Source: Cyclobacterium sp.
Lineage (GTDB): Bacteria > Bacteroidota > Bacteroidia > Cytophagales > Cyclobacteriaceae
Assembly: GCF_014762705.1 (NCBI RefSeq)
Contig: NZ_JABURL010000089.1
Location: 1 to 64,000, forward strand
Length of the DNA stretch: 64,000 nucleotides
Reading direction: 5' to 3'
The translations under genes were made by a program, and so were the position numbers. This document shows positions 3,735-64,000 of this stretch, piece after piece. The notes under the pieces were generated by a model that was not told the DNA's origin, did no database searches, and worked only from the letters and a program-made list of their open reading frames with translations. The stretch's first letter is position 1. The number at the start of each line of letters is the position of its first letter.

Positions 3735-5216
3735 ATGAAAAATAACATAAATAAAAGTTTGATTATGCTGGCAACAGGCTTTTTGCTTCTCTTGTCGGCT
3801 TGTACGGAAGGCTTTGAAGATTTAAATATTGATCCAAATCAGCCTTTGGAAGTGCCAACTTCAAGTCTATTGACTGGTGCACAACGGGAGTTGGTTGCAA
3901 ATATATTCGGGAATCATAGTCAGCTTGATGGAATTGGTCTACCGGGTATGATTTACGCTCAGCAAATGGCTAGTTTGAGGGGTGGGGCCACCGATACATA
4001 TGCGACCGTAGAGGCAGATTTTTCCGCCTTTTACACCAGTGGACTCAGGGATTTGGAGGAAATCATTCTTCTGAACACCAATCCGGAAACCATGGTCAAT
4101 GCAGCCCTTTCAGGACCAAATCAAAATCAAATTGCTGTAGCCCGAATTCTTAAAGCATGGGCCTATCAAAATATAACGGATGTATGGGGGGATATTCCCT
4201 ATGAAGAGGCACTCCAGGGGAATAATTTTCCACTTCCTGCCTACACTACCCAGGAGTTCATTTATATGGATTTGCTCAAGGAACTTTCTGAAGCAGCTGA
4301 AATGATTGATATTGCAGGGGGGGGTATAGCCGGAGATATTATTTTTGATGGTAACATGGACAAATGGTACAGGTTTGCGAATAGCCTGAGGATGAGGGTT
4401 GCCCTTCGCTTGTCCAATGTCGCCCCGGAAGTAGCTGAAAATCACATTTCCGAAGCGTTTACAGCTGGACCAATGGTTTCGGTAGACGACAATGCTTACT
4501 ACAAATTTTTAGAATCCCAGCCAAACAACAATCCATGGTTTTTCCGATTTGAATTAAGTGTCCCCAACTACGGTGTAGGTAGCACTTTGGTGGATATGCT
4601 CAAATCATTAAATGATCCAAGGCTTGAAAAGTATGCAGATGTTGCTTTCAATCAGGATTTGGGAGGAGGATATATCGGGCAGCCTGTGGGGCTTGACGTA
4701 GCTTCTGGAAGTGCTATAAGTGACTTTGCAGTATCCTGGCCAAATGCTGAAAATATCCTACAACCCACCTCAACTTTTACCATCATGTCTTATGCCGAGG
4801 TAAATTTCATTTTGGCTGAAGCGGCTGAAAGGGGTTGGATTTCTGGCAATGCCTCGGATTATTACAATTCGGCAATTTCGGCTTCTATGGAACAATGGGG
4901 CATTTCGGATCCCTCAGCTATAGAAAGTTATTTGTCTCAGGGTGATGTAAGGTATGACAGTACAGATCCATTCAAGTCAATTGGAAATCAGAAGTGGATA
5001 TCTCTTTACATGCAGGGTGTGCAGTCCTGGAGTGAATGGCGCAGATTACAATATCCAGAGCTGGATGTTGCCAAAGATGCCGTTATCGAAGCGATCCCGA
5101 GACGTAGGGGCTATCCGCCAAGTGAAATCAATTTGAATAAATCAAATTATGAGGAGGCCCTGGCCAGACAAGGTTCGGATGATCTGCTAACCAGGGTATG
5201 GTGGGACAGACAATAA
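3735..5216 (+). CDS. SusD/RagB-family surface lipoprotein (SusD-like_2)
   Basis: Substrate-binding lipoprotein that caps the SusC channel. It has 493 residues. The signal peptide ends in the lipobox LSAC with the lipidated Cys at residue 23, and the N-terminal CTEGFEDLNIDPNQP is the usual SusD start. Further SusD features are the central AWAYQNITDVWGDIPYEEA segment and the C-terminal WSEWRRLQYPEL. It lies directly downstream of SusC and 27 bases upstream of the first amidase, so it is probably cotranscribed with both. Oddity: a run of eight G residues at 4317-4324 encodes part of a glycine stretch and could be slip-prone. The ligand is unknown. Confidence 0.94.
   Translation: MKNNINKSLIMLATGFLLLLSACTEGFEDLNIDPNQPLEVPTSSLLTGAQRELVANIFGNHSQLDGIGLPGMIYAQQMASLRGGATDTYATVEADFSAFYTSGLRDLEEIILLNTNPETMVNAALSGPNQNQIAVARILKAWAYQNITDVWGDIPYEEALQGNNFPLPAYTTQEFIYMDLLKELSEAAEMIDIAGGGIAGDIIFDGNMDKWYRFANSLRMRVALRLSNVAPEVAENHISEAFTAGPMVSVDDNAYYKFLESQPNNNPWFFRFELSVPNYGVGSTLVDMLKSLNDPRLEKYADVAFNQDLGGGYIGQPVGLDVASGSAISDFAVSWPNAENILQPTSTFTIMSYAEVNFILAEAAERGWISGNASDYYNSAISASMEQWGISDPSAIESYLSQGDVRYDSTDPFKSIGNQKWISLYMQGVQSWSEWRRLQYPELDVAKDAVIEAIPRRRGYPPSEINLNKSNYEEALARQGSDDLLTRVWWDRQ
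4317..4324 (+). repeat. G8 homopolymer inside SusD
   Basis: Eight consecutive G bases lie within the reading frame of the SusD-like gene (glycine-rich turn, around residue 196). A one-base slip would truncate the protein. Confidence 0.8.
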
Positions 5217-5243
5217 AGAACATTTGAACTAAAAAATAGGATT

Positions 5244-6791
5244 ATGATTTTCAAAAAGAAAAATAGCAGAAGAGATTTCATAAGTTCATCTTTCATGTTG
5301 TTTGGTAAGGGGGGGCTTGGCCTGATGGCCCCCCCTGTTTTTAGCGCAGCCAACAGCATCAATTCCTCCCATTTCTATCAATCCAATTACCATTCACAAG
5401 ACGTTAAGTCTGCCTCTGTTGTGCAGATGGCGCAAATGATCAGGGATAAAGAAATTTCCTCCGTGGAATTGGTTAACATCTTGTACAGTCGGATAGAGGA
5501 GGTAAATCCCCAGATCAACGCAGTGGTTTTGACTTGTAAAGAAAGAGCACTAATGGAAGCTCAAAAGGCTGATGAGATGCTGGCGAAAGGTAATTTGATG
5601 GGCGCTCTGCATGGAGTACCCATGACCATCAAGGACTCTCTGGATACAGCGGGAGTACTCAGTACAGGGGGTACTTTGGGCCGAAAAGATCATATCCCCC
5701 CGCAAGATGCGACCTTAGTAGCCAGACTCCGTTCTCAGGGAGCCATTCTTTTGGGTAAAACCAATACTCCTGAATTTACCCTGTCAGGCACCACGGCCAA
5801 TTTGATTTACGGCATGACGAGCAATCCTTATAAAGAGGGGTACAGTCCCGGGGGAAGCAGTGGAGGTGCCGGAGCCATCGTGGCAGCTGGAGGCTCTCCT
5901 TTCGACATCGGATCGGATTTTGGCGGGAGTATCAGAGGACCAGCTCATTTCAATGGTATTGCAGGTATGAAACCCACTACCGGATTGGTGCCGCGTACCG
6001 GCCATATTGTAGACTACGGAGGATTATTTGATGCCTATCAGGTACTTGGGCCTATGGCCAGATATGTGGAGGATTTGAAACTCATCCTTCCAATCATCAT
6101 GGGGCCGGATCAAATAGATGCAGCCATTCACCCGGTTCCCTGGACAGATCCTGACACCATCCAAATAAAAAACTTGAAATATGCCTGGTTTGTAGAGCAT
6201 GGAAGCACGAAGGATTGCTCAGTGGAAACTGTAGCAGCCATTACCCGAGCTGTAGCATCTTTGGAAACTGCCGGTATTCAAGTTAAAGAAGATGCACCCA
6301 TAAAGGATTTCCAGGAAGCAGAAGAAGTCCGTTATCAGCTATTCAGTGCTGATGGTAGGGCATGGGTAAGTAGGCTCACAGAAAGATACGGTACCAAACA
6401 AACGCATCCCCTTCTGAGGTTATCTGATCCATCGACTGCTATTCCTTCAGTCGAATTTACCGGGTTGGTGGAAAAATTAGACGCTTGCAGAAGTAAGTTA
6501 TTACAATGGATGCAAAATTATGACATTGTCATTTGTCCTGTTCATTTTGATGGTGCAGCGCCAAATCCTACGGTTTTCGAGAGATCTTCAGGAGCTGCTG
6601 ATGAGTATGGATATATGGGAATTTTTAATCTCACGGGTTGGCCTGCTGCAGTTGTAAGAGCAGGGACTAGTAAAGAAGGTTTGCCAATAGGAGTTCAGAT
6701 AGTGGGACAGCCTTTTCAGGATCACAAGGTATTGGCCGTTGCTCAGTATTTAGAAAAAGAACTGGGAGGCTGGCAGGCACCGCCAATATAA
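5244..6791 (+). CDS. Tat-exported amidase-signature hydrolase 1 (type A)
   Basis: Amidase-signature (AS) family enzymes hydrolyse C-N amide bonds using a Ser-cisSer-Lys triad. In this 515-residue protein the triad is readable: Lys130 in GVPMTIKDS, cis-Ser205 in GGSSGG and nucleophile Ser229 in GSDFGGSIRGP. The Ser spacing of 24 residues matches the family. The N-terminus NSRRDFI followed by a hydrophobic stretch fits a Tat signal, so the enzyme should be periplasmic. It is closest to the third amidase of the locus, sharing a short loop before LIYG and the GPDQ-DA segment. A G7...C7 hairpin lies in the signal-peptide codons. The substrate is unknown; the AS family also includes fatty acid amide hydrolase, peptide amidase and the cyclic-amide hydrolase NylA. 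Confidence 0.92.
   Translation: MIFKKKNSRRDFISSSFMLFGKGGLGLMAPPVFSAANSINSSHFYQSNYHSQDVKSASVVQMAQMIRDKEISSVELVNILYSRIEEVNPQINAVVLTCKERALMEAQKADEMLAKGNLMGALHGVPMTIKDSLDTAGVLSTGGTLGRKDHIPPQDATLVARLRSQGAILLGKTNTPEFTLSGTTANLIYGMTSNPYKEGYSPGGSSGGAGAIVAAGGSPFDIGSDFGGSIRGPAHFNGIAGMKPTTGLVPRTGHIVDYGGLFDAYQVLGPMARYVEDLKLILPIIMGPDQIDAAIHPVPWTDPDTIQIKNLKYAWFVEHGSTKDCSVETVAAITRAVASLETAGIQVKEDAPIKDFQEAEEVRYQLFSADGRAWVSRLTERYGTKQTHPLLRLSDPSTAIPSVEFTGLVEKLDACRSKLLQWMQNYDIVICPVHFDGAAPNPTVFERSSGAADEYGYMGIFNLTGWPAAVVRAGTSKEGLPIGVQIVGQPFQDHKVLAVAQYLEKELGGWQAPPI
5309..5335 (+). repeat. G7/C7 hairpin within Tat signal codons
   Basis: Seven G (5309-5315) and seven C (5329-5335) can pair, extended by C5316 with G5328. 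This is a very strong hairpin about 65 nt inside the amidase 1 coding region. Both arms are homopolymers and so also slip-prone. Confidence 0.7.
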
Positions 6792-58694: not shown

Positions 58695-58771
58695 AATTAA
58701 TTCCCAGGTTTTTCAGTACCGAATAGGCATTTAGCAGAATATGCTGTAATTTTTGGATTCATTTTGAATTC

Positions 58772-60097
58772 ATGATGACTATTATATTTGTCGCCCTCAG
58801 TATTCTATTGCTGGTTTTGATGATCGTTTGGATTAAGGTGGAGCCTTTTATCGCCTTTTTGATTACTTCCATCATAGCCGGATTATTTTTGGGAATTCCC
58901 ATGGAAACCATAGCCACTTCCATTCAAGACGGCATAGGGGACCTGATGGGGGCCCTGGTAATCGTCATTACCCTGGGTGCCATGTTGGGTAAAATTGTGG
59001 CTGACAGCGGGGCTGCCCAAAGGATAGCCCTTTTTCTCATGAAACAATTTGGGGAGCGGAGGGTACACTGGGCCATAGCTTTAACCGCTTTTATTGTTGG
59101 TATACCCTTATTTTTCAATGTGGGTTTTGTATTACTCGTACCTCTTGTTTTCTCCGTCTCCTACCAATATAAAATTCCGGCCATGGCAATAGGTATTCCC
59201 ATGTTGGCGGCTCTTTCTGTAACCCATGGTTTATTACCACCTCATCCGGGACCGGTTGCTTTGGTGGCACAGTTTAACGCAGATATGGGAACCACACTGA
59301 TTTATGGTTTTATCCTGGCCATACCCATAGTGATTTTAGCGGGCCCGCTTTTGGGAAAATGGCCTTATTTTCAAACCATGAAGGTGAAGCCTCTGGAGGT
59401 TTTTAGTGCCAAACCCAAGCCGGTTGAAGAACTGCCGGGTTTGTTAAACAGTCTTTTCACGGCTTTGCTTCCCGTATTTTTGCTCATTACTTTATCCCTG
59501 GTTAAATTAAACGTTGCCGAAGAAAGCTGGGGTTTCGATTTTATGGTATTTATTGGTAATCCGAATGTAGTGATGTTGGTTTCCCTAATCTGGGCCACTT
59601 TTAGCCTGGGGATAATAAAGGGAGTTAAGATCACCAAAATCATGGAGGGATATTCTGGAGCAGTGAAGGATATCGCATTGATCCTGTTGATCATTGCCGG
59701 AGCCGGGGCGTATAAGGAAATTTTGGTGGATAGCGGGGTAAGCAGTCAGATAGGAACTTCCCTGGAAGTTTTACCCGTAAATCCTTTATTGCTGGGTTGG
59801 TTGATTGCTGCGGTTATCCGGGTATCTGTTGGATCGGCCACTGTGGCGGCATTGACAGCTGCCGGCATAATCGCCCCTCTGGTTACTTCAGGGCAGTCCG
59901 ATCCTGAGTTAATGGTATTGGCTATTGGAAGTGGAAGCCTGATATTCTCCCATGTTAATGATGGAGGTTTTTGGTTGGTCAAGGAATATTTTAATTTGAG
60001 TATCAAGCAGACTTTTTTATCCTGGACTTTGTTGGAAACAATTGTTTCCATGCTGGGATTAGCAGGAGTTTTGATAATGGATTTGTTTGTTTCATAA
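58772..60097 (+). CDS. GntP-family proton symporter
   Basis: Inner-membrane permease of 441 residues with about twelve helices, in the GntP family (gluconate, D-serine and related carboxylates). Typical features are TLGAMLGKIVADSGAAQRIA, LTAFIVGIPLFFNVGFVLLVPL, LSVTHGLLPPHPGPVALV and HVNDGGFWLVKEYFNLS. The family includes DsdX, the D-serine permease of E. coli. Followed after 21 bases by a RidA gene and a D-hydroxyamino-acid lyase-like gene, a D-serine/D-threonine-type substrate fits better than gluconate (inference). Confidence 0.92.
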   Translation: MMTIIFVALSILLLVLMIVWIKVEPFIAFLITSIIAGLFLGIPMETIATSIQDGIGDLMGALVIVITLGAMLGKIVADSGAAQRIALFLMKQFGERRVHWAIALTAFIVGIPLFFNVGFVLLVPLVFSVSYQYKIPAMAIGIPMLAALSVTHGLLPPHPGPVALVAQFNADMGTTLIYGFILAIPIVILAGPLLGKWPYFQTMKVKPLEVFSAKPKPVEELPGLLNSLFTALLPVFLLITLSLVKLNVAEESWGFDFMVFIGNPNVVMLVSLIWATFSLGIIKGVKITKIMEGYSGAVKDIALILLIIAGAGAYKEILVDSGVSSQIGTSLEVLPVNPLLLGWLIAAVIRVSVGSATVAALTAAGIIAPLVTSGQSDPELMVLAIGSGSLIFSHVNDGGFWLVKEYFNLSIKQTFLSWTLLETIVSMLGLAGVLIMDLFVS

Positions 60098-60118
60098 TTT
60101 TCATAAAAAATTTTAGAT

Positions 60119-60583
60119 ATGTCAGCAGAAGGAAAGTTAAAAGAAATGGGATTGGTTTTACCCCCTGCTCCGCCTCCCGGGGGCGTTTACCGGCCTGTAA
60201 TCATTACTGGTAATTTACTCTACCTTTCAGGACACGGACCTGTTCGTGAAGATGGTAGCCTTATCAAAGGAAAGGTAGGAATAGATCTGGATAAGGATCA
60301 GGGTAAGGACGCCGCCAGACAGGTGGCACTGACCATGCTGTCTACCCTGCAGGCCCAGCTGGGTAGTATCAATAAAGTAAAGCGGGTAATCAAGGTATTG
60401 GGAATGGTCAACAGTAGCTTGGATTTTGAGGAGCATCCCTATGTTATCAATGGCTGCTCGGAACTTTTCAGGGATATCTGGGGAGAGGAAAATGGCATTG
60501 GATCCAGGAGTGCTGTGGGTTTTGGTTCCTTGCCAGGAAATATTGCGGTTGAAATTGAAGCTACCTTTGAATTAAATCAATAA
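60119..60583 (+). CDS. RidA-family enamine/imine deaminase
   Basis: 154 residues. Members hydrolyse reactive enamines such as 2-aminoacrylate released by PLP-dependent dehydratases. It has VIITGNLLYLSGHGPV, the central AARQVALTMLSTLQAQLGS and a C-terminal GSRSAVGFGSLPGNIAVEIEATF with the conserved Arg (about 130). The somewhat longer N-terminus with a Pro-rich loop (PPAPPPGG) marks a subgroup distinct from E. coli RidA. It sits between the GntP permease and the PLP lyase, five bases before the latter. Confidence 0.92.
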   Translation: MSAEGKLKEMGLVLPPAPPPGGVYRPVIITGNLLYLSGHGPVREDGSLIKGKVGIDLDKDQGKDAARQVALTMLSTLQAQLGSINKVKRVIKVLGMVNSSLDFEEHPYVINGCSELFRDIWGEENGIGSRSAVGFGSLPGNIAVEIEATFELNQ

Positions 60584-60588
60584 ATCCC

Positions 60589-61701
60589 ATGAGCGAAAAA
60601 TGGTACGCACTCAATCATCCTGAAAACATTGATAGTCCGGCCCTTTTGGTATATCAGGACAGGGCACGGGAGAATATACAAAGAGCCATTGATGTGGCAG
60701 GTTCTCCGGATCGCTTGAGACCACATGTGAAAACAAATAAATCCATAGAAGCCTGCCGGATGATGATGGAGGCTGGAATAAAAGCCTTCAAAGGAGCTAC
60801 AATAGCGGAAATTGAGATGTTAACCCTGGCAGGTGCCCGGGATATACTATTGGCCTATCAGCCAGTAGGACCAAAAATTGACAGGTTTTTAAATCTGGTA
60901 AAAAGTCATCCGGATATACAATTCCATTGTTTGACAGACAATGAACAGGCAGCTAAGGCAATCGATTTAAAAGCCCGGGAAAAGGGGCTGGAAGTGTCGG
61001 TTTACATTGACCTGAATGCGGGAACTAACCGAACCGGGGTAAGTCCGGGTGAAAAGGCGGAAATACTTTTTAAGGCCATTAGGCTCCTGAAAGGTTTGCG
61101 CATTACAGGATTTCACCTTTATGACGGGCATTTGAGAAATCCCGTATTCGATATTCGAAAAAAGGAATGCGATGCAGGTTTTGAACCCATATCCGCCATG
61201 CGGAAGCGTTTGGAGGAAGATCATGGTCTTTCATTGGAAATCATTGCAGGGGGTACCACTACTTTTCCTATTCATGCGAAAAGAGAAAGGGTGACCTGTG
61301 GTCCGGGAACCTTCATTTACTGGGACGATGGCTATGCAGCAACCCTTCCGGAACAGGAATTTTTGTTTGCGGCACTGCTAATCAGCAGAGTGGTTTCTTT
61401 TCCTGCTGAAAACCTGATCTGCGTGGATCTTGGGCATAAGGCCATCGCTTCTGAAAACCCGCTGGATAAAAGGATCCGATTTATCAATGCCAATGACCTG
61501 ACAGCGGTGAGCCAAAGTGAGGAGCACCTTGTTTTACAGACTTCTCCGGAGCATGATTATCAGATTGGGGATGTATTTTATGGTGTTCCTTATCACATCT
61601 GTCCTACTGTTGCCTTGCATCAGGAAGCTGTGGTTATCCGGGATGGTGATGAAGTGGGCAGGTGGAAGACCATTTCCCGGGACCGGAAAATTTCAATTTA
61701 A
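60589..61701 (+). CDS. D-serine dehydratase/D-threonine-aldolase-like PLP enzyme (DSD1 family)
   Basis: Alanine-racemase-fold enzyme, 370 residues. LRPHVKTNKS carries the PLP Lys48 (family consensus HVKTHK, here Asn replaces the second His). FHLYDGH and IAGGTTTFP follow, then the C-terminal metal pair His336-x-Cys338 in VPYHICPT. From memory His-x-Cys is the zinc pair of D-serine dehydratases, while classic D-threonine aldolases have His-x-Asp, so dehydratase activity is favoured. The adjacent RidA gene, which would handle the aminoacrylate product, supports that. The exact substrate is not proven. Confidence 0.87.
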   Translation: MSEKWYALNHPENIDSPALLVYQDRARENIQRAIDVAGSPDRLRPHVKTNKSIEACRMMMEAGIKAFKGATIAEIEMLTLAGARDILLAYQPVGPKIDRFLNLVKSHPDIQFHCLTDNEQAAKAIDLKAREKGLEVSVYIDLNAGTNRTGVSPGEKAEILFKAIRLLKGLRITGFHLYDGHLRNPVFDIRKKECDAGFEPISAMRKRLEEDHGLSLEIIAGGTTTFPIHAKRERVTCGPGTFIYWDDGYAATLPEQEFLFAALLISRVVSFPAENLICVDLGHKAIASENPLDKRIRFINANDLTAVSQSEEHLVLQTSPEHDYQIGDVFYGVPYHICPTVALHQEAVVIRDGDEVGRWKTISRDRKISI

Positions 61702-61729
61702 TGTTTTCAATCAAGTAAAGAAACGATTC

Positions 61730-62803
61730 ATGTTTACAATAGATGCCCACCTTGACCTCAGTATGAATGCGCTGGAGTGGAACAGGGATTTGACGCTTTC
61801 GGTAAAGGAAATCAATGCCAGAGAGGAAGGATTAACAGATAAACCTGACAGGGGAAATGCCACGGTTTCATTGCCTGCTTTGAGGGAGGCAAGCATTGGG
61901 ATGGTGGTGGCTACCCAAATTGCCAGGTATGTGGCTCCCGGCAATCCTTTACCAGGATGGCATAGTCCGGAGCAGGCATGGGCCCAGACGCAGGGGCAAT
62001 TGGCCTGGTATGAAGCCATGCAAGAAAAGGGGGAGATGATTCAGATCAGGGATAGGGAAAGCCTGGAGGCTCACATCAGCCTTTGGCAAAATGGGGAGTC
62101 TCAGGAAAAAAGGCCCATTGGTTATATGCTATCTTTAGAAGGGGCAGATTCCATCATCAATTTGAGCTACCTGGAAAAATCCTATGAAAAAGGTTTGAGA
62201 GCCCTGGGACCTGCGCATTATGGTCCCGGGAGGTATGCCCAGGGTACAGATGCCTCCGGGCCTCTCGGGCCTAAAGGAAGGGACTTGCTAAAGGAAATGG
62301 AACGCTTGAATATAATATTAGATGCTACCCATTTGTGTGATGAAAGTTTTTGGGAAGCCTTGGATCATTTTAACGGGCCCGTTTGGGCGAGTCACAATAA
62401 TTGCAGGGCCCTGGTTAATCATAACAGGCAATTTAGTGATGAGCAATTGAAGGAATTGATCAATAGGGGTGCGGTAATTGGAGGTGCTTTGGATGCGTGG
62501 ATGATGGTACCCAATTGGATAAAAGGTGTATCCATGCCCAGAGAAATGAATTGTGATCTGGAAAAGGTAATCGACCATATGGACCATATTTGTCAAATTG
62601 CCGGTAATGCCAGGCATATTGGCATTGGTACCGACCTGGATGGAGCCTATGGCAGGGAGCAAAGTCCCTACGATCTGGAAACCATTGCGGATATAAGCCG
62701 CATTCCGGGAATGCTGGAAAAACGGGGCTATGGCGAAGAAGATATTCGTTTGGTGATGCATGGTAACTGGCTAAGGTTCCTAAGAAAGGCCTGGTCAGTA
62801 TAG
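61730..62803 (+). CDS. M19-family membrane dipeptidase-like protein
   Basis: Zinc dipeptidase family that accepts dipeptides with a C-terminal D-residue. It has 357 residues without an evident signal peptide. Likely zinc ligands are the His and Asp of IDAHLDLSM, the Glu of MLSLEGADS, the His of DATHLCDE and the His of WASHNNCRAL. GTDLDGAYG at the end carries the conserved Asp. It starts 28 bases after the PLP enzyme and ends the operon before a long terminator. It could release D-amino acids for the upstream enzyme. The ATG chosen is internal to a longer frame overlapping the previous gene. Confidence 0.9.
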   Translation: MFTIDAHLDLSMNALEWNRDLTLSVKEINAREEGLTDKPDRGNATVSLPALREASIGMVVATQIARYVAPGNPLPGWHSPEQAWAQTQGQLAWYEAMQEKGEMIQIRDRESLEAHISLWQNGESQEKRPIGYMLSLEGADSIINLSYLEKSYEKGLRALGPAHYGPGRYAQGTDASGPLGPKGRDLLKEMERLNIILDATHLCDESFWEALDHFNGPVWASHNNCRALVNHNRQFSDEQLKELINRGAVIGGALDAWMMVPNWIKGVSMPREMNCDLEKVIDHMDHICQIAGNARHIGIGTDLDGAYGREQSPYDLETIADISRIPGMLEKRGYGEEDIRLVMHGNWLRFLRKAWSV

Positions 62804-62860: not shown

Positions 62861-62911
62861 AACAACCAAAAAACCCCTTTTAAATATCTTAAAAGGGGTT
62901 TTTTGGTTGTT
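62861..62911 (+). terminator. Perfect 23-bp terminator hairpin after the D-amino-acid operon
   Basis: The arms 62861-62883 and 62889-62911 are perfect reverse complements with a five-base loop. The right arm carries a T6 run, so it is probably an intrinsic terminator; it separates the operon from the carotenoid unit. Confidence 0.9.
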
Positions 62912-62985: not shown

Positions 62986-63000
62986 CAAATATTAGCTTTG
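62969..63000 (+). promoter_or_regulatory. Promoter of sigma factor-crtI unit
   Basis: TTTG (62969-62972), 20 bases, TAGCTTTG (62993-63000), matching the Bacteroidota -33/-7 pair; the start codon is 21 bases further on. Confidence 0.6.
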
Positions 63001-63021
63001 ATTAAACAAAAAACAAAAACC

Positions 63022-63534
63022 ATGACGACACTTGAATTTAGCTACTCCTTAAATAAGTTAAGTAAAACTTTAAAGCCTTTTGCCTTGAAATTAACCAGAG
63101 ACATGGATGATGCCAATGATCTTTTACAGGATACCATGGTCAAGGCTTTTACAAACAAAGACAAGTTTGCCGAAGGCACCAATCTTAAAGCATGGTTGTA
63201 TACCATTATGAAAAATACTTTTATTACCAATTATCAAAGAATGGTGCGTAGGGGTACTTTTGTGGATACTTCCGATAACTTACACTTTATCAATTCGGGA
63301 TCAGTGGTCATTGAAAATGATGCGTTTGGTGAATTTGCCATGAAAGACATCACAAGAGCCATAGATAATCTGGATAGCGTGTATAAAACACCATTTATGA
63401 TGCATTATAAGGGTTTCAAATATCATGAGATTGCTGAGAAATTGGATATTCCGATAGGAACGGTAAAAAACAGAATTCATATTGCACGCAAACTATTAAA
63501 AGACGAACTTCAGGTGTACATTACCAAAAATTAA
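63022..63534 (+). CDS. ECF-type RNA polymerase sigma factor upstream of crtI
   Basis: 170 residues. Sigma region 2 (FALKLTRDMDDANDLLQDTMVKAFTNKDKFAEGTNLKAWLYTIMKNTFITNYQR) and region 4 (YKTPFMMHYKGFKYHEIAEKLDIPIGTVKNRIHIARKLLKDEL) are both present. No anti-sigma gene follows; instead a CrtI-type desaturase starts three bases after its stop. Such sigma-crtI pairing is common in Bacteroidota, suggesting that it governs carotenoid synthesis, perhaps in response to light or stress. The ATG is the most likely start. Confidence 0.92.
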   Translation: MTTLEFSYSLNKLSKTLKPFALKLTRDMDDANDLLQDTMVKAFTNKDKFAEGTNLKAWLYTIMKNTFITNYQRMVRRGTFVDTSDNLHFINSGSVVIENDAFGEFAMKDITRAIDNLDSVYKTPFMMHYKGFKYHEIAEKLDIPIGTVKNRIHIARKLLKDELQVYITKN

Positions 63535-63537
63535 AAA

Positions 63538-64000
63538 ATGATACATCGCAAAGTTGTAGTTATTGGTTCGGGTTTTGCCGGATTATCTACAGCCACTCAC
63601 CTGGCAGTTGAAGGCCAGGAAGTACTGTTATTGGAAAAAAACAACACCCTTGGTGGAAGGGCGAGAATGTTCGAGGCCGAGGGTTTTACTTTTGATATGG
63701 GGCCTAGTTGGTATTGGATGCCGGATGTATTTGACAGGTATTTCAATAAATTTGGCAAAAAGACCAGCGACTATTATGACCTTATAAGGCTAGACCCCTC
63801 TTATGCCGTGATTTTTGGTAAAGACGACTTCATGGATATTCCGGCCAATCTTGATGAATTGAAAAAATTGTTTGAAGGCCTGGAGCCGGGATCTGGTAAG
63901 CGGCTGGATGATTTTTTAAATCAGGCAGCTTATAAATACCAGAAGGGAATCCATGATTTGGTGCATCGCCCCAGTCTTTCATTGATGGAATTTGCAGATT
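63538..64000 (+). CDS. crtI: Phytoene desaturase (CrtI), 5' part, cut by window end
   Basis: The first 154 codons of a carotenoid desaturase are visible. The FAD-binding motif VVVIGSGFAGLSTATHLAVEGQEVLLLEKNNTLGGRARMF and FTFDMGPSWYWMPDVF are diagnostic for the CrtI family. Phytoene desaturase converts colourless phytoene to lycopene or neurosporene at the membrane. It is cotranscribed with the sigma factor. The reading frame stays open to the last base, so the gene continues past the window and its C-terminus could not be checked. Confidence 0.88.
   Translation, partial: MIHRKVVVIGSGFAGLSTATHLAVEGQEVLLLEKNNTLGGRARMFEAEGFTFDMGPSWYWMPDVFDRYFNKFGKKTSDYYDLIRLDPSYAVIFGKDDFMDIPANLDELKKLFEGLEPGSGKRLDDFLNQAAYKYQKGIHDLVHRPSLSLMEFAD

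Follow-up and report, generated by a model that had tools for sequence, protein, structure and literature searches.

Within the 64,000-nucleotide stretch of Cyclobacterium sp. DNA analysed here (contig NZ_JABURL010000089.1; hereafter the window), four plus-strand genes at positions 58772-62803 encode a GntP-family permease, a Rid-family protein, a fold-III pyridoxal phosphate (PLP) enzyme and an M19 amidohydrolase. We propose, at a probability of about one half, that this operon imports and degrades an amino-sugar aldonic acid in N-acylated form (2-acetamido-2-deoxy-gluconate or -galactonate, for instance), in a manner resembling the ong pathway of Gammaproteobacteria. Such compounds are beta-hydroxy D-alpha-amino acids with a sugar tail. 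A first-pass annotation of the window had assigned the four genes to the import of D-serine and D-threonine, their elimination to the enamine and clearance of the intermediate by RidA; free D-serine and D-threonine are, however, just one class of beta-hydroxy D-amino acids compatible with these enzymes, and the likeliest substrate is a glycan-derived amino sugar in oxidised form, not free D-serine. An amino-sugar aldonate would explain the permease and the glycosidase and DgoK/aldolase neighbours of related loci at once, whereas D-serine or D-threonine explains the enzyme families but not their setting. The features are as follows.

58772..60097, + strand: GntP-family permease of the GntT/IdnT-like clade, 441 aa (PF02447, 496 bits; TIGR00791; tree)
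60119..60583, + strand: Rid-family imine/enamine deaminase-like protein, 154 aa (PF14588/PF01042; R130, E145)
60589..61701, + strand: DSD/D-TA family fold-III PLP enzyme with H336-x-C338, 370 aa (PF14031 and PF01168; HxC)
61730..62803, + strand: M19 amidohydrolase ("membrane dipeptidase"), proposed cytosolic N-deacylase, 357 aa (PF01244, 167 bits)
62861..62911, + strand: 23-bp hairpin with an internal T run, likely a transcription terminator (RNA fold)

What can be read from the sequence itself is an operon, its wide conservation, a dehydratase-type motif, intact Rid and M19 residues, a permease of a sugar-acid clade and, in some relatives, a setting of polysaccharide utilization loci (PULs) and of 2-keto-3-deoxygluconate/galactonate (KDG(al)) metabolism. 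The four genes lie in one direction with gaps of only 21, 5 and 28 nt, confirming the earlier description, and their assignment to one operon is supported. Translation of M19 likely starts at the ATG at 61730; the GTG at 61517 chosen by the open reading frame tool would overlap the PLP enzyme gene. All Pfam assignments of the four proteins exceed the Pfam cut-offs (GntP_permease, 496 bits; YjgF_endoribonc, 48.9, and Ribonuc_L-PSP, 39.6, in Rid; D-ser_dehydrat, 65.7, and Ala_racemase_N, 56.1, in the PLP enzyme; Peptidase_M19, 167). The hairpin downstream (-32.4 kcal/mol, z -8.35, with 0 of 200 shuffled sequences equally stable) was missing from the list of a simple consensus terminator scanner; it probably ends the operon transcript ahead of a sigma-factor gene.

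Water elimination followed by imine hydrolysis appears well supported as the chemistry of the PLP enzyme and Rid pair, because a His-x-Cys (HxC) metal motif is found in 60/60 aligned PLP enzymes and the key arginine of Rid in 41/41 rows. The PLP enzyme alignment comprised the window sequence and those of all 59 loci holding the enzyme, and no rows were dropped from the PLP or Rid sets. Both marks of a DSD1-type enzyme, the PLP lysine (K48) and the metal pair (H336 and C338; HIC in 43 rows and HVC in 17), were present throughout, as was the carboxylate-binding R148, the counterpart of Arg157. Printed alignments of four solved aldolases show HxD instead. The chicken D-serine dehydratase is reported to use a His/Cys pair in place of the His/Asp pair of the aldolase and to have no counterpart of the aldolase base His193 (PMC4401734); the position aligned to this base is histidine in only 3 of the 60 rows. 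At the motif level a dehydratase is therefore favoured over an aldolase, in agreement with the DSD1-type assignment made earlier. The window enzyme shares PF14031, Ala_racemase_N and HxC with the zinc-dependent D-serine dehydratases (yeast DSD1, chicken DSD and bacterial DSD1), but it is distant from them (65 bits to the chicken enzyme, 3anu) and belongs to a Bacteroidota family linked to M19 and Rid. With D-threonine aldolase and BhcC it has the fold family and overall alignment in common (82 bits), but differs in having HxC rather than HxD and in not conserving the base His193. An AlphaFold model of the enzyme built from 9 sequences (mean pLDDT 66) was too weak and was not used.

The other two enzymes also appear intact. 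R130 and E145 of Rid are conserved in 41/41 rows, and the nearest solved structures are 3d01 and the PA0814 Rid. By its motif, R130 is presumably the equivalent of RidA Arg105, which binds the substrate carboxylate, and a protein with this Arg/Glu pair would be fit to hydrolyse the enamine or imine, the role already given to RidA. In the M19 protein, H7, D9, E137, H201, H222, R233 and D302 were found in 46/46 rows (L067, at 319 aa, fell below the length filter); the metal and catalytic roles of these residues are those of renal dipeptidase, read off alignments with 3neh and 3fdg. The assignment to M19 thus stands with its metal and catalytic residues in place, which are also those of the dipeptidases DPEP1, Lmo2462 and the Rhodobacter M19. 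Enzymes of this family hydrolyse amides in which the amine set free is a D-amino acid. In contrast to the dipeptidases, the window M19 has no signal peptide by eye, nor do the Rid and PLP proteins, and some of its relatives stand in a sugar-acid setting. Lacking a signal peptide, the M19 enzyme probably works on a compound that has already been taken up, in keeping with a role in N-deacylation.

The appeal to the D-serine permease DsdX made in the first-pass annotation did not hold up. The window permease is 46% identical to GntT, 44% to IdnT and 35% to DsdX of E. coli, and NCBIfam places it above the cut-off of TIGR00791 gntP (493 bits) and far below that of the DsdX model (261 bits against a cut-off of 618). 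In a tree of 37 sequences, seven E. coli members among them, the 27 permeases of the operon family (the window and 26 of the 29 permease-holding loci) formed one clade (100/100) next to E. coli GntT, IdnT and GntP. DsdX branched outside this group, although its branch, like that of E. coli GntP, is long. Two truncated sequences (L013 and L127) and one of 44% identity (L126) had been dropped from this set. On the strength of the tree the analogy to DsdX was rejected, and the clade suggests a sugar acid without fixing which substrate is carried. The dsdCXA system of E. coli likewise places a GntP-superfamily permease beside a PLP enzyme that removes water and ammonia, but it has no adjacent Rid or M19 gene and its permease holds a position that the window permease does not share. 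DsdA has another PLP fold. DSD1 is described as distinct from DsdA in a study of marine D-serine users (PMC6965332). A further GntP paralogue of the Cyclobacterium genome lies beside a 2-keto-3-deoxy-6-phosphogluconate (KDPG) aldolase gene and a DgoK-like kinase gene on contig 26 (G000, L152:8318-9974).

To assess conservation of the operon, 68 loci were compared: 8 from an initial set, 39 of 69 places outside the window from an order-wide search, 20 of 29 such places from a class-wide sample (among them L135, a paralogue from the window's own genome) and L048, an own-genome paralogue only 26% identical, which was dropped from the counts to leave 67. The PLP enzyme (E <= 1e-30) was found in 69 of 291 genomes order-wide, and the M19 protein (E <= 1e-60) in 26 of 395 class-wide. 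All four genes occur together in 20/67 loci, with order and strand identical in every one. The partial sets comprised DSD with M19 (10 loci), GntP, Rid and DSD (8), Rid, DSD and M19 (8), M19 alone (7), Rid and DSD (3) and GntP, Rid and M19 (1), in addition to DSD alone. Leaving out six loci of the initial 8-locus set, DSD was found without M19 in the fetched stretch at 15 loci from 14 genomes, 12 of which carry this M19 elsewhere (each E <= 1e-120, 52-65% identical). The PLP enzyme of C. plantarum (L008) is 98% identical to that of the window. The operon is also present, with one additional DUF4833 gene, on a Parabacteroides distasonis record named as a plasmid, and a Hymenobacter plasmid carries it without the permease. 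The public Parabacteroides record names the products gluconate:H+ symporter, RidA, 'D-TA family' enzyme and 'membrane dipeptidase'. A glyoxalase-family gene lies near the PLP enzyme gene in L010-L015 (Emticicia-type; between Rid and DSD), L072 and L077.

Several related loci place the operon beside genes for glycan breakdown. A GH20 hexosaminidase and a GH29 fucosidase are encoded directly upstream of GntP in L050, L051, L053, L056 and L058, and in L049, which has no GntP, the pair lies upstream of Rid-DSD-M19 with three genes between. The window's own four-gene operon has no GH20; six relatives thus have GH20 in the stretch upstream, five of them beside GntP. In four of these loci (L049, L053, L056 and L058) the pair is itself preceded by a SusD-like gene, and all twelve GH20 and GH29 proteins of the six loci have signal-peptide-like N-termini by eye. 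Pfam was run on the GH20 and GH29 of L056 and the SusD of L053, the other members being assigned by BLAST cluster. Farther from the operon genes, members of both glycosidase clusters occur in L118 and a GH20 cluster member in L126. In L087, GntP-Rid-DSD-M19 forms one run with genes for a short-chain dehydrogenase/reductase (SDR), FAH, UxaA-like, fuconolactonase-like, L-fucose dehydrogenase (365 bits; cut-off 300), FucP (498; cut-off 280) and RhaM proteins, and the same fucose genes form one run with DSD in L075 and L085. Many other loci have no recognised sugar gene nearby, as judged by Pfam scans on a chosen part of the neighbours. Across genomes, GH29 occurs in 66/69 with the PLP enzyme and 69/222 without; for the control family GH43 the figures are 63/69 and 100/222, and within GH43-positive genomes GH29 occurs in 62/63 with the PLP enzyme and 54/100 without. 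L049 also holds a SelA-like PLP enzyme, an amidohydrolase and a second Rid, which might represent a swapped module. In genome G290, a 3HCDH-M19 run is followed downstream by a gene for a PNGase F-type N-glycanase (L170:12949-14622), which hints at N-glycans.

Two genomes (G029 and G059) carry the PLP enzyme and Rid without M19 (L054 and L059) and have their M19 gene in a separate co-directional series (L132 and L176): pyrroloquinoline quinone (PQQ) dehydrogenase, DgoK (PF05035), KDPG/KHG aldolase, a major facilitator superfamily (MFS) transporter, 3HCDH, M19, FecR, SusC and SusD. The best model for the MFS protein of L132 is the D-galactonate transporter, below its cut-off. Genes of L132 were assigned by Pfam and NCBIfam (SusD by BLAST), and those of L176 by BLAST to L132, except that the 753-aa first gene and FecR were placed by position. 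In the M19 tree both proteins fall in a set of seven rows (100/97) with the DSD-adjacent L074, L081 and L082, plus L174 and L175. Together, these series would provide upstream oxidation, sugar-acid import and both a kinase and an aldolase for 2-keto-3-deoxy acids, as required in an amino-sugar-acid pathway ahead of, and following, deacylation and deamination.

From these observations we infer the substrate, the direction of transport, the N-deacylase role of M19 and the product. The GntT/IdnT-like permease, judging from its clade, would import the sugar acid, and the cytosolic M19 enzyme would remove the N-acyl group to give the free 2-amino-2-deoxy-aldonate. The PLP enzyme, with the HxC metal motif behind this type of chemistry, could then eliminate the beta-hydroxyl as water, and Rid, given its conserved residues, could hydrolyse the enamine or imine to a 2-keto-3-deoxy acid and ammonia. 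Genes outside the operon would supply the kinase and the KDPG(al) aldolase that complete the breakdown; the Cyclobacterium genome has two PF01081 aldolases.

The closest known parallel is the ong cluster of Pseudoalteromonas prydzensis, which encodes a GH20 enzyme (OngA), a sodium:solute symporter (SSS) family permease (OngIT), a D-aminoacylase-type deacetylase of N-acetylglucosamine 1-acid (GlcNAc1A; OngB) and KdgK (Jiang et al. 2022, PMC9537276). As described there, the fold-III PLP enzyme OngC forms 2-keto-3-deoxygluconate (KDG) and ammonia from glucosamine 1-acid (GlcN1A) and accepts D-Ser and D-Thr as well, the RidA protein OngD is essential and is given as of unknown role, and the hosts of complete ong pathways are all Gammaproteobacteria but for one betaproteobacterium (PMC9537276). 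A structure of OngB has been described (PMC12017989). As reference for sequence comparison we used the proteins of an ong-type cluster on a Klebsiella plasmid (L165), assigned by gene content, rather than the P. prydzensis sequences. The window operon resembles L165 and ong in combining a permease, an N-deacylase, a fold-III PLP deaminase (with HxC in L165) and a RidA-family protein. GH20, part of the ong cluster, is found here in relatives only, and KdgK/KdgA, part of L165, have counterparts beside M19 in L132 and L176. Both the M19 enzyme and the OngB type belong to the amidohydrolase superfamily. In contrast to ong, the window has GntP rather than an SSS permease (no significant match between the window GntP and the L165 permease, E 7.2) and M19 rather than a D-aminoacylase, its four genes include no regulator, its genome has no AA10 lytic polysaccharide monooxygenase (LPMO), and its host belongs to the Bacteroidota. 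In its mode of action the operon is thus plausibly ong-like, although its genes do not make up an ong cluster. Literature searches returned no paper joining glucosaminate with D-threonine aldolase, none on glucosaminate dehydratase or deaminase names, and none with two or more of the three NCBI product names of the operon.

A number of observations weigh against an amino-sugar aldonate as the substrate. The window PLP enzyme is 24% identical (70 bits) to that of L165, whose best solved relative is 3gwq (368 bits, against 51 bits for the window enzyme), and orthology with the OngC type was rejected on these grounds. Comparison of the window M19 with the D-aminoacylase of L165 gave no significant match (E 0.073), and Rid matches the L165 RidA weakly (26% over 69 aa, E 0.007). 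We know of no M19 enzyme that acts on amino sugars. An AA10 LPMO was found in only 1 of 291 genomes of the order and not in the window's own; GlcNAc1A from chitin oxidation by an own AA10 enzyme is therefore unlikely and was rejected as the source, so that the aldonate would have to be supplied by cross-feeding, by oxidases of another kind or by the PQQ dehydrogenase that some relatives encode. Among the four genes of the window operon there is no kinase, aldolase or glycosidase, and by BLAST, KdgA/KdgK homologues were found in 1/68 loci (L132) and later in L176, besides one weak KdgK match (51 bits) in L054. Gaps in the L132 series reach 244 nt, beyond the 150-nt run threshold, which makes it a co-directional series only. 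The PLP enzyme stands alone in 10/67 loci, M19 occurs without it (E <= 1e-30) in G035, G050 and G091, and the GH29 association, uncorrected for phylogeny and genome size, is likely inflated by both. Finally, H181 of the PLP enzyme, three positions from the His193 equivalent, is histidine in 56/60 rows and may be a base of some role.

That last residue bears on the possibility that the operon belongs to a D-threonine aldolase, a 3-hydroxy-D-aspartate aldolase or a racemase. The solved relatives with the highest scores to the PLP enzyme are aldolases, its best NCBIfam match is the BhcC aldolase model, and NCBI calls the plasmid homologues 'D-TA family'. The BhcC score of 102 bits is nevertheless far below the cut-off of 690, and the invariant HxC motif, set against HxD in the solved aldolases, together with the missing base His193 led us to reject an aldolase identity; we consider this alternative very improbable. 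A PUL might instead release a sugar (e.g. a uronic acid) in amide linkage to a hydroxy amino acid, or glycopeptide remnants, from which M19 would free the amino acid for degradation by the PLP enzyme and Rid. The same PUL and fucose setting would suit such a substrate, as would the PNGase F gene downstream of M19 in L170, and M19 enzymes cleave amides next to a free carboxylate. No carbohydrate with such an amide came up in this analysis, however, and such a substrate would not account for the KDG(al) kinase and aldolase genes next to M19 in L132 and L176, leaving this alternative improbable.

The strongest competitor to the amino-sugar aldonate is that D-serine and D-threonine, or dipeptides carrying them, are imported, freed by M19, dehydrated by the DSD1-type enzyme and cleared as the imine by Rid. 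The enzyme family and HxC motif fit a D-serine dehydratase, and known M19 enzymes cut dipeptides ending in D-residues. In addition, 47/67 loci are short of at least one of the four genes, and many have no recognised sugar gene alongside. In marine D-serine users, two DSD1 genes were up on D-serine and two others were not, and DSD1 is counted among the key enzymes (PMC6965332). The operon, the dehydratase motif, Rid and the M19 residues of the original proposal have thus stood, while its DsdX-type permease has not and the sugar surroundings in relatives speak against it: the permease lies outside the DsdX position, and this reading gives no account of the GH20, GH29 and SusD genes, of the L-fucose genes or of the DgoK-aldolase-M19 series. 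We regard this alternative as unlikely, though less so than the two above.

More tentatively than for the operon itself, we suggest that Bacteroidota from Cyclobacterium to Parabacteroides may share an AA10-independent amino-sugar-aldonate route, consisting of periplasmic oxidation of an amino sugar (by PQQ dehydrogenase in some genomes), GntP or galactonate-type import, M19 N-deacylation, DSD-like water elimination and Rid hydrolysis to a 2-keto-3-deoxy sugar acid. If so, the ong pathway would exist in a second version that was assembled independently, the M19 family would include a branch of carbohydrate de-N-acylases, a subfamily that has moved from peptides to sugars, and the widespread 'D-amino-acid' annotation would be wrong, with the current database names of the four genes hiding a shared pathway.

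Further M19 genes were found in other surroundings. The second M19 of the window's own genome (56% identical; G000 contig 66, L135:703-7068) lies in a run of aldo-keto reductase, GFO-like, SDR, SDR, RidA, M19 and ceramidase-like genes. The runs of L134, L179 and L180 read RidA, 3HCDH, class III aminotransferase, 3HCDH, M19 and ceramidase-like, and L177 is the same with an MFS gene inserted. In L177 a D-aminoacylase-like gene (5001-6641; 36% identical to the Klebsiella ong-type deacylase) adjoins the ceramidase-like gene of the M19 run, so that both deacylase types can share a cluster. In L121, L123 and L124, M19 proteins 71-73% identical to that of the window, and sister to it in the tree, are encoded beside tetrapyrrole-methylase-like genes, with PEGA-domain genes in L121 and L123; these genomes belong to the same family, and the PLP enzyme was not found in them at E <= 1e-30.

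Past the hairpin lies a separate unit (62998-63999 of the window), in which an extracytoplasmic function (ECF) sigma-factor gene precedes a flavoprotein gene of the amine-oxidase family; the latter continues beyond the window edge. On the other side of the operon, upstream of GntP, the C. plantarum locus contains an additional gene whose 547-aa product has a type IX sorting domain (L008:4455-6098). It is absent from the window (58695-58771) and from L009, which marks an indel between close relatives.

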